A DNA stretch of 33,820 nt from an uncultured Methylopila sp. (lineage in GTDB: Bacteria; Pseudomonadota; Alphaproteobacteria; Rhizobiales; Methylopilaceae): assembly GCA_902168115.1 (NCBI GenBank), contig CABHPB010000081.1:1-33820 (forward strand), given 5' to 3'. Shown piece after piece: positions 3,195 through 10,662 of this stretch. The notes beneath the pieces are model-generated. The model had not been told where the DNA came from, made no database searches, and worked only from the letters and a program-made list of their open reading frames with translations. Both the position numbers and the translations under genes were made by a program. Positions within the stretch are counted from its first letter, which is position 1, and each line of letters begins with the position of its first letter.

Positions 3195-4028
3195 TCAGCC
3201 GAACAGGAAGTCGCTCTTGTGGAGTTCGTCGAGCGAGGTGTCGACAAGGGTGAGCTTCGAGCCGTCGTCGAACTTGATGACGACGTTGTCGCCCTTCTCC
3301 TTGGCGGCGTCCATCACCTCGGCGAAAGAGGAGAACTGGCCGGCGTGGAAGTCGATCACGTCGCCCTTGCCCTTGCCGCCCTCGAAGTCGAGGATCTGGT
3401 CCTTGCCCGAGCCCGTGGCGAAGACGAAGACGTCGTTGCCCTCGCCGCCGGTCAGCTTGTCGTTGCCCGCGCCGCCGTTGATCTTGTCGTTCCCGGCGCC
3501 GCCGTCGAACTTGTCCTTGCCCTCGCCGCCCTTCAGCGTGTCGTCGCCGCCAAAGCTGACGAAGGCGTCGTTGCCGCTGCTGCCCTGGAAGGTCAGGTCC
3601 TGGTCGGCGAGGAGCTCCATGAGATGCTCGGTGTCGCCGGCCATGAGGTCGGTCAGGATCTGGTTGATGACGCCGTCGGCGCCGGTGCTCTCGAGCCCAA
3701 GATTGTCGAAGACCAGCGAGGCGTCGGTGGAGAAGTCGTCGCCGTCCTGGGTGACGCCGACGCCGAACTCGATGCGGTCGATCGTGCCGCCGACCGTGTG
3801 GGTGGCGAAGTCGTAGGAGAGGTCGCCGGCGTCGCCGGAATCGATGATGACGGCCTGCGCGCCCTCTACCGGGATCGAGGTGTCGTCGCCCGCCCAGAGC
3901 GCATATTCGTCGCCGCTGAAGATGTCGCCGCTGAATGCGCCGCGGCCCGCCGGGACGAAGTTGTCGGCGAAATCCTGCAGATATGCGTTGACGTCGAGAC
4001 CCTCGGTCACCTTGACCTTGATCGCCAT
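3195..4028 (-). CDS. HasA-like hemophore fused to a C-terminal RTX domain
   Basis: 277-residue secreted heme scavenger. Residues 1 to about 147 resemble HasA heme-acquisition proteins: YLQDFADNF near the start, SGDEYALW (38-45), GDLSYDFATHTVGGTIDRIEFG (from 68), and GADGVINQILTDLMAGDTEHLMELL (from 116), parallel to the HasA stretch ending GHDGVVHQVVYGLMSGDTGAL. Tyr72 and His77 fit the Tyr75/His83 pair of Serratia HasA; no histidine occurs before residue 77, so the His32 ligand is missing, as in Tyr-only HasA of Yersinia pestis. From 149, classical HasA ends but here GGxGxD calcium repeats follow (about 151-200), then a C-terminal cap (201-277) of RTX type. There is no signal peptide, so type I secretion is expected. 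It starts at ATG 4028 after AGGAGG and sits 61 bases downstream of the receptor gene. Homology was judged from memory of HasA. Confidence 0.82.
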   Translation of the reverse strand: MAIKVKVTEGLDVNAYLQDFADNFVPAGRGAFSGDIFSGDEYALWAGDDTSIPVEGAQAVIIDSGDAGDLSYDFATHTVGGTIDRIEFGVGVTQDGDDFSTDASLVFDNLGLESTGADGVINQILTDLMAGDTEHLMELLADQDLTFQGSSGNDAFVSFGGDDTLKGGEGKDKFDGGAGNDKINGGAGNDKLTGGEGNDVFVFATGSGKDQILDFEGGKGKGDVIDFHAGQFSSFAEVMDAAKEKGDNVVIKFDDGSKLTLVDTSLDELHKSDFLFG

Positions 4029-4089
4029 TCTTCAGTCCTCCTGTTCGCCCGGCCTTCCCGACGGGGCGGTCGCGAATGGAGCCGCGGCG

Positions 4090-6390: not shown

Positions 6391-6415
6391 AATTGGAATT
6401 GAAGTTATTCCAATT
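6391..6415. promoter_or_regulatory. 25-bp operator-like palindrome of the heme operon
   Basis: AATTGGAAT and ATTCCAATT are perfect 9-bp arms around a 7-base spacer, in an AT-rich patch about 120 bases upstream of the receptor start. The position suits a promoter operator. GAA and TTC are 9 bases apart, which does not fit the Irr ICE motif (TTTAGAA-N3-TTCTAAA), and it is not a good Fur box. Iron or heme control is inferred from context only. Confidence 0.5.
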
Positions 6416-9486: not shown

Positions 9487-10662
9487 TTAGGGCTGAAGAT
9501 TGCAACTACCGTCGCTCTGCACTGCATCGCGGATTTTATTGTTATAGAACACCAACTGCTCTCGAGAGAGAGGAACAAACTGCTCATAATCAGCTATATT
9601 TTGACGAGATATCAACATCGTATACGTAACTTCTAGATAATACGACACAACACCGCCAGACGATTCGTCCGCGTTGATAAAAATACTCATTCCAACGGTT
9701 TCTCTATAATTTGGAAATATTTCTGATATCGAGGATTCCTTCTTCAATCTAAAGGGGCCCACCCCCTTATTAGTGGGCACCGCCACTGTCTGAAATGAGT
9801 ACGGCCTACCCTCAAAAACTGACTTCCATTTACGAGCTATAGTCGAAAAAACATTCTCACCTGCTGGAATGCCTATCTGACAGGAGAATGAGTTTGGAGG
9901 TTCAAGCGAATAACCACCCTCAAAGAAACCATATATAAATCTTACATATGTCTTCCCTTCGCTCTCTATTACCACCGCTGTGCAATGCGGAGCCTCTGGA
10001 TCCGCTTTCATAAAATACATCCAGCACAACTGCGTTGATTTTCTTATCCTTCCGCTATCGTGCGAAACAACAACTATATTTAGTCCATTTCTGTCGGGAC
10101 GCTGGTTGGCTGCCCATTCCACAATTTCATTCCAGATACGCAACACTTCAGCTGCGTCTGGATCCTTGTCGGCATCAATCCACGCTATTTTCTCTTGATA
10201 AGCCCAACCATGATCTATTGGGTTAAGCAGCGAGCCATTTCCAGTGAAGCTAAAATTTCGGATTCTTTTCCAAAATACGTCCCTATCATACCCGGTTGCG
10301 CTAACTGCCTCACCCGCGATCTTTCGAAACAAATTACCTGGCATTACTGGAATTGCACGTTCAACAACGAAGTCGCCTGCATCAACAAAGCATTTCATTT
10401 TGACACCCTTTACTTTGCACGGAGTGTCAAATATTTTACCCCCACTCGACTTCACTCGTCTCTCGCGCAACTGTTTGAATATCGTATCGCTGGACTCAGT
10501 AAATTCACCACCAATACCACCTTGCGTGACAATACCCCCAATATCGCCATTCGATCGAATAATCATTTTTGGCGACGATAACACTGTTTCCGAGGTGCAA
10601 AGACTTAGGAAAATGGCCAAAGTGTACAAAATCACAGACCTAAACATCCAACTACGCTCCAT
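9487..10662 (-). CDS. Exported protein of unknown function, AT-rich island
   Basis: 391 residues; not recognised. The N-terminus has one hydrophobic segment (about 7-24, FRSVILYTLAIFLSLCTS) that reads as a signal peptide or signal anchor. The rest is soluble and contains six cysteines (82, 91, 213, 227, 261, 387), an even number consistent with periplasmic disulfides. Visible stretches include VKGVKMKCFVDAGDFVVE (85-102), WIDADKDPDAAEVLRIWNEIVEW (161-183), LNIVVVSHDSGR (194-205) and FIYGFFEGGYSLEPP (242-256). No Walker, nuclease or protease motif is evident. The ATG at 10662 lies inside the 3' end of the membrane-protein gene (11-base overlap ATGGAGCGTAG) with AAGG upstream, so translation is probably coupled. 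Codon use is AT-rich, unlike all genes around it. The two proteins likely work together at the membrane. Confidence 0.75.
   Translation of the reverse strand: MERSWMFRSVILYTLAIFLSLCTSETVLSSPKMIIRSNGDIGGIVTQGGIGGEFTESSDTIFKQLRERRVKSSGGKIFDTPCKVKGVKMKCFVDAGDFVVERAIPVMPGNLFRKIAGEAVSATGYDRDVFWKRIRNFSFTGNGSLLNPIDHGWAYQEKIAWIDADKDPDAAEVLRIWNEIVEWAANQRPDRNGLNIVVVSHDSGRIRKSTQLCWMYFMKADPEAPHCTAVVIESEGKTYVRFIYGFFEGGYSLEPPNSFSCQIGIPAGENVFSTIARKWKSVFEGRPYSFQTVAVPTNKGVGPFRLKKESSISEIFPNYRETVGMSIFINADESSGGVVSYYLEVTYTMLISRQNIADYEQFVPLSREQLVFYNNKIRDAVQSDGSCNLQP

Follow-up and report, generated by a model that had tools for sequence, protein, structure and literature searches.

The closest described relatives of the protein reported here are the HasA hemophores (PF06438), known from S. 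marcescens and P. aeruginosa, with which it shares a homologous domain, the proximal tyrosine and histidine, a hasR gene beside its own gene, and the kind of operon. According to the excerpts that we drew on from two accounts of type I secretion, published HasA has no RTX domain, needs SecB for its export, and, once folded, inhibits that export (PMC8277102, PMC4648471). By the same excerpts, type I substrates of the RTX class fold in extracellular calcium, and a need for SecB was not observed for them (PMC4648471, PMC8277102). Two further described proteins resemble ours in single respects. The holo form of HasA from Y. pestis binds iron through Tyr75 alone, His32 not being a ligand, and its excerpted description mentions no RTX domain (PMC9627568); the likeness lies in the tyrosine-only site, and because of this precedent such ligation is not new as such. 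In Dechloromonas aromatica, a HasA-like domain is embedded in a 2079-aa filamentous haemagglutinin-like protein, for which the excerpted description gives neither an RTX fusion nor a Has operon (PMC2907700).

Here we analyze a 33,820-nucleotide stretch of DNA (“the window”), which is the whole of contig 81 of a 154-contig assembly (G000) from an uncultured Methylopila sp., and which encodes a protein that we call HasA-RTX (Table 1). In contrast to classical HasA, it adds an RTX domain and a serralysin-like C-terminus, its loop is shorter and lacks the distal histidine, the tyrosine and histidine of the heme site are spaced as Tyr-x4-His rather than mostly Tyr-x7-His, and no hasDE genes are linked to it. 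With RTX substrates of type I systems such as serralysin it shares the RTX repeats and the C-terminal region, but its passenger is a HasA domain and not an enzyme or toxin. We read the locus, with a probability of roughly 0.78, as an operon for Has-type heme uptake in which the HasA domain of the hemophore is joined to RTX repeats; the hemophore would be exported by a general PrtDE system, capture heme through Tyr72, and deliver it to HasR. HasA-RTX is then a variant of the known Has system with an added export and folding module, and it joins two classes of type I substrate, since published HasA is devoid of RTX and SecB dependent. As one natural protein holding both classes, it would allow the factors that hold a passenger unfolded, and those that drive its export, to be tested by removing or moving the RTX part. 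No description of a HasA-RTX protein was found in the open-access literature searched, which was seen in part and leaves all preprints and most subscription papers outside its scope; the combination of PF06438 and PF00353 may already be recorded in databases, because relatives pass both models.

Table 1. Features of the hasA-RTX locus, in coordinates of the window
Feature	Coordinates	Strand	Remarks
Second RTX protein, 446 aa	1084..2424	minus	PF00353; closes the run of genes on this strand
Heme oxygenase, HemO type, 200 aa	2520..3122	minus	PF01126, E 5.2e-18; PDB HemO, E 9.6e-37, and pa-HO, E 2.3e-34
hasA-RTX gene	3195..4028	minus	Open frame, 277 aa; product presumed to be a secreted hemophore that carries an RTX domain
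C-terminal region, residues 204-277	3198..3419	minus	Serralysin-like, ends LHKSDFLFG; presumed to be the signal for type I secretion
RTX calcium-binding repeats, residues 148-203	3420..3587	minus	PF00353; PDB RTX toxins and serralysins
HasA-type domain, residues 1-147	3588..4028	minus	PDB HasA matches; kept in relatives
His77 codon	3798..3800	minus	Corresponds to HasA His83, which pairs with the tyrosine; invariant in 16/16 rows
Tyr72 codon	3813..3815	minus	Equivalent of HasA axial ligand Tyr75; invariant in 9/9 and 16/16 rows
Ribosome-binding site of hasA-RTX	4037..4042	minus	AGGAGG, 8 nt upstream of the ATG, read from the sequence
HasR-type TonB-dependent heme receptor, 728 aa	4090..6276	minus	TIGR01785, 471 bits (cut-off 316.85)
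Palindrome upstream of hasR	6393..6413	unstranded	TTGGAAT-N7-ATTCCAA; candidate operator, for regulation by iron or heme

The HasA-RTX protein and its predicted heme site

The hasA-RTX frame opens with an ATG at position 4028, and its G+C content of 0.94 at third and 0.38 at second codon positions resembles that of the window's other coding-type frames. A first-pass annotation made from the DNA had assigned the first ~147 residues to the HasA family and described them as fused to an RTX domain, and both statements hold. When residues 1-148 were compared with PDB sequences by phmmer, the top match was HasA (E 4.8e-7), and 22 of the 26 distinct sequences among the matches listed were HasA. Profiles of the domain gave E values of 7.2e-12 when built from nine rows of the genus (HasA making up 24 of 25 among the matches listed) and 6.4e-18 when built from 16 wider rows with the RTX repeats left out (24 of 26 among the matches listed). 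As a control, the N-terminus of the neighboring RTX protein was searched against PDB at E up to 10 and found no HasA. By these sequence comparisons, the homology of residues 1-147 to HasA is confirmed. C-terminal to this domain, PF00353 matches with an E value of 6.9e-17 and its best stretch at residues 167-200, the sole Pfam match of the protein; the nonapeptide calcium repeats thus lie near the C-terminus, as in RTX substrates of type I systems. A serralysin model covers residues 161-275 at a score below the model's cut-off, and the C-terminus is conserved among relatives.

The outcome was different for the Pfam model of HasA itself, against which the first-pass annotation had proposed that the domain be checked. 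PF06438 left the window protein below detection (no match at E up to 1), and a search of the whole genome at E up to 10 returned nothing at the place of hasA-RTX; its one match elsewhere in that genome (E 0.092) was discarded as weak and falling in a thiD-like frame, as was the single match in 385 genomes of the class, which was weak, under the cut-off, and in a gcvT/ygfZ-like frame. The model's cut-off was nevertheless passed by four of the nine non-classical relatives scanned, one of which is 60% identical in the domain. Among the ten relatives scanned with Pfam, the cut-offs of PF06438 and PF00353 were both passed within one protein in G009, G354, G359, and G032, RTX alone was recognized in those of G012, G008, and G017, those of G245 and G661 had no match at all, and one classical HasA scored 328 bits with PF06438. 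We read the failure on the window protein as a limit of the model, which does not make the homology absent, and it points to HasA systems being more widespread than matches to that model would indicate. The protein is accordingly filed as a HasA-homologous variant, and not as a classical HasA, because its operon contains no dedicated hasDE exporter; most likely it works like HasA.

Tyr72 and His77 had been equated at the outset with Tyr75 and His83 of HasA, and the two pairs are in register in our alignments and conserved in relatives. In a diverse alignment of 16 domains, the only invariant positions are Tyr72, His77, and Gly81. A larger set of 49 domains was taken from the fetched stretches of relatives, excluding the window and including two identical rows and one row from a chimeric ORF; here the tyrosine is kept in 49/49 and the histidine equivalent in 44/49, the five exceptions being two rows each from G245 and G370 and one from G236. 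Tyrosine and histidine are four residues apart in the window protein and in 32 of these 49 domains, whereas the spacing in classical HasA is seven residues in three of the four examples examined and 13 in the fourth.

The opposite side of the site differs as well. As the first-pass annotation had noted and the translation shows, the window protein has no histidine before residue 77, and the distal His32 of loop L1 is thus without a counterpart. The L1 stretch comprises 11 residues in the window protein and 9 to 14, mostly 11, in the non-classical rows measured, against 16 in the single classical row that was measured out of four; the other three look longer. Alignment with the nine-row genus profile places nine inserted residues of HasAp at this loop. 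Likewise, residues 3-160 of PDB chain 4jer (193 aa), which we take to be the HasA of Y. pestis, cover profile positions 3-147 and are longer over the same span, the loop of the window protein being cut back. Some relatives, namely, those of G661 and G354, still have a histidine in the L1 stretch. Together, the missing histidine before residue 77 and the shortened distal loop make ligation of heme by tyrosine alone likely in HasA-RTX, and the affinity or geometry of the site may differ from that of classical HasA, because both the distal loop and the Tyr-His spacing do. Such a reduced heme site would lend itself to structure and binding studies.

The operon and its occurrence among relatives

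Along the minus strand, the genes follow in the order HasR-type receptor, HasA-RTX, heme oxygenase, and second RTX protein. The receptor's best match in PDB is HasR (E 3.6e-81), followed by ShuA (E 5.8e-25), and of eight matches to TIGR01785 in its genome it alone passes the cut-off. Pfam recognizes a plug and a barrel in it and gave no match for an STN signaling domain. A histidine in the plug aligns with HasR residue 189, and a second one is displaced by a single residue from HasR position 603; in HasR, these two residues bind heme. The second RTX protein was considered as a second HasA and rejected, since its N-terminus gives no HasA match; its first 118 residues are without any PDB match under E 8. 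Of the eight other loci of the genus, only that of the nearest relative, G015, has this gene beside the operon (the contig of G017 ends too soon), and its membership of the Has system is uncertain.

The palindrome upstream of hasR recurs as the same element in G015 and G012, with weaker forms of it in G009 and G017, and it is followed by a conserved TTATTG-GCGCC block that is a candidate promoter. Its place is taken by a FecR-type gene in G008 and G014, in the latter preceded by an ECF sigma gene, and FecR and ECF sigma genes are also found upstream in G370 and G661. As for the receptors, that of G008 has an STN domain and that of G013 gave no match for one; among the frames scanned, no FecR-like or sigma gene lies beside hasR of the window. 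By analogy, the upstream genes of these relatives recall the HasI-HasS-HasR signaling that is known from published work (PMC11442138). Elsewhere in the window, a 391-aa frame next to lepA (9487-10662) gave no Pfam match at E 0.001.

A search of genome contigs returned one relative, Chelatococcus sambhunathii S14, which is 86% identical in the domain, and no relatives of the locus were found in the viral contigs searched. Within the family, 9 of 18 genomes have the HasA-type domain; all nine belong to the genus, which is represented by 13 genomes, and exactly these nine also have a HasR of 58% identity or more. The four genomes of the genus without a match to the domain hold receptors of 34% and 39% identity in two cases and none at E 1e-40 in the other two. 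HasR and heme oxygenase flank HasA-RTX in 9/9 genomes of the genus that carry the gene. In a sample of the order, the domain was found in 21 of 397 genomes at E 1e-4, each of which has a copy beside a HasR-like ORF; outside the genus there are 12 such genomes, in which all ten receptors scanned pass TIGR01785, and of which G032 and G370 have a heme oxygenase within that stretch. With respect to the genome count that had been proposed for the combined architecture, the fusion extends throughout the genus and reaches other families of the order. In wider samples, the domain was found in 2 of 385 genomes of the class and 8 of 398 of the phylum, and four of these eight belong to another class, presumably the Gammaproteobacteria, and carry classical HasA beside HasR and a HasDE-like (PrtDE-like) pair. 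In a tree of 49 rows (48 domains plus the window, with one chimeric row dropped), the four classical HasA proteins group together with support of 93/87, and the deep forks are weak.

Some HasA-domain ORFs have no HasR-like ORF within the stretch fetched around them, namely, those at G014:C5, at G172:C1 near 522 kb, at G217:C9, and on C22, C27, and C34 of G327. Several of these are large. A very large RTX ORF of G172:C1 (L092 2580-13715) contains four HasA-type domains in 3712 aa, and two ORFs of G217:C9 (L098 6414-12617 and 12739-16527) contain three in 2068 aa and two in 1263 aa; tyrosine and histidine are kept in all nine domains, and no HasR-like ORF was seen in either fetched stretch. Two HasA-type domains also occur in a second ORF, of 682 aa, in G014 (L073 7228-9273, on C5), where no HasR-like ORF adjoins it in the fetched stretch; G007 and G013 have such an ORF as well. 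The HasA-like proteins of G370 (L075 8646-10459) and G245 (L076 9461-10297) lie beside HasR and PrtDE and keep the tyrosine, with the partner histidine lost; G370 has two HasA-like copies in a row. In G017, a frame near the start of a contig (L063 284-1630, on C8) joins the first ~190 residues of HasR to HasA-RTX from within the domain. This might be either a deletion fusion or an assembly chimera, and the same genome carries an intact pair on C18.

Other readings of the fused domain

If the RTX part held the protein on the surface or in an outer matrix, the HasA domain could catch heme there and feed HasR directly. Large RTX proteins are often surface proteins, and the ORFs of relatives with up to four HasA domains in 3712 aa, as well as a 673-aa relative in G236 that also has a DUF4214 domain, would fit such an arrangement. 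The window protein, however, is small (277 aa), has few repeats, and ends in a serralysin-like C-terminus, and serralysins are released from the cell, so that we consider a surface-held catcher unlikely in this case. It is also conceivable that the domain no longer binds heme, and either attaches to HasR to serve as a ligand for signaling or regulation or takes a tetrapyrrole other than heme. Both the shortened distal loop and the loss of the histidine equivalent in 5/49 domains of relatives would agree with this, yet the tyrosine is kept in every one of the 49, a heme oxygenase accompanies the gene in all nine carriers of the genus, and the window's HasR shows no match to the STN domain. We therefore regard a role apart from heme as quite improbable.

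Lastly, the likeness to HasA might be a chance product of a composition rich in glycine and aspartate, the protein then being an ordinary RTX protein that happens to lie beside a heme receptor. That PF06438 misses the window protein would be expected on this account. It is already contradicted by the profile from which the RTX repeats had been left out (E 6.4e-18), by the control with the N-terminus of the RTX neighbor, by the constancy of the HasR neighbor, and by the fact that, in four genomes of another class, the domain profile recovers classical HasA with HasR and a HasDE-like pair as neighbors, and we give it next to no weight.

Export and the proposed course of heme uptake

The first-pass annotation had favored a general RTX exporter over a dedicated HasDE, and a linked exporter is indeed lacking: no PrtDE-like pair was found within the window, nor in the surroundings that were fetched for the nine genus genomes. 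Contig ends are no explanation in the single-contig assemblies G012 and G009, whereas the contigs of G017 and G354 do end near the HasA locus. Elsewhere in its genome, the strain has two PrtDE-type pairs over the cut-off, on contigs C66 and C110. Among the frames listed, no RTX-motif gene of substrate size lies beside either pair, although one frame near the C110 pair holds a single RTX motif. Orthologues of the C110 pair are present in 12/12 other genomes of the genus, including the four without HasA (partial in G009), at identities of 76-96% for PrtD and 64-96% for PrtE, and in five of the nine HasA carriers, no PrtD-like match other than the C110 type appears at E 1e-60. Because of this distribution, the C110 pair looks like a general exporter and is the likely route for HasA-RTX.

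A second candidate is the C66 pair, whose PrtD is closer (47-52%) than that of C110 to those encoded beside HasA in G134, G245, G370, and G661. As a general exporter it was rejected, C66-type PrtD occurring in only G000, G007, G013, and G014 of the nine HasA carriers. Two further ABC exporters, on C27 and C76, were set aside as nearest to an NHLM-type model and under every cut-off shown.

A linked PrtDE pair is present in G134, G245, and G370 (3 of the 21 order genomes) and in G661. The ORFs counted there contain 0-2 RTX motifs in three of the four genomes and seven in G134. More generally, RTX motifs are commoner where no exporter is linked, with 2-18 at 17 loci versus 0-7 at eight (Mann-Whitney p 0.0009, uncorrected for kinship); given that the window was left out of this comparison, that one of the two G370 ORFs was used, and that several loci lie near contig ends, we take the excess as a hint only.

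Under our preferred reading of the locus as a Has-type uptake operon, HasA-RTX would leave the cell unfolded through a general PrtDE-type type I system encoded elsewhere. Lying at the C-terminus, the RTX part would be the first to emerge; it could thereby draw the HasA domain out of the cell, might also hold that domain unfolded, and would itself be folded by calcium outside. The HasA domain would take up heme by means of Tyr72, assisted by His77 but by no histidine of the opposite loop, a geometry that we predict from the alignments, and would pass it on to HasR. Heme would enter by TonB-driven uptake and be carried inward by an HmuTUV-like transporter, after which the heme oxygenase would release the iron.

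On a wider scale, it is tempting to speculate that the HasA family has a second branch within the order, one where SecB and the dedicated HasDE have given way to calcium-driven folding of RTX and a general exporter, tyrosine-only sites lie under a cut-back distal loop, and multivalent catchers with two to four HasA domains have been built from the branch. We offer this broader picture tentatively, as a possibility more doubtful than probable.

With respect to transport inward, contig C82 of the same genome encodes a heme ABC ATPase that scores above its cut-off and, next to it, a FecCD permease. Both stand in a row with a 308-aa ORF (L111 6520-9277, G000:C82), which gave no NCBIfam match at E 1e-20, and this three-gene row is likely HmuTUV.
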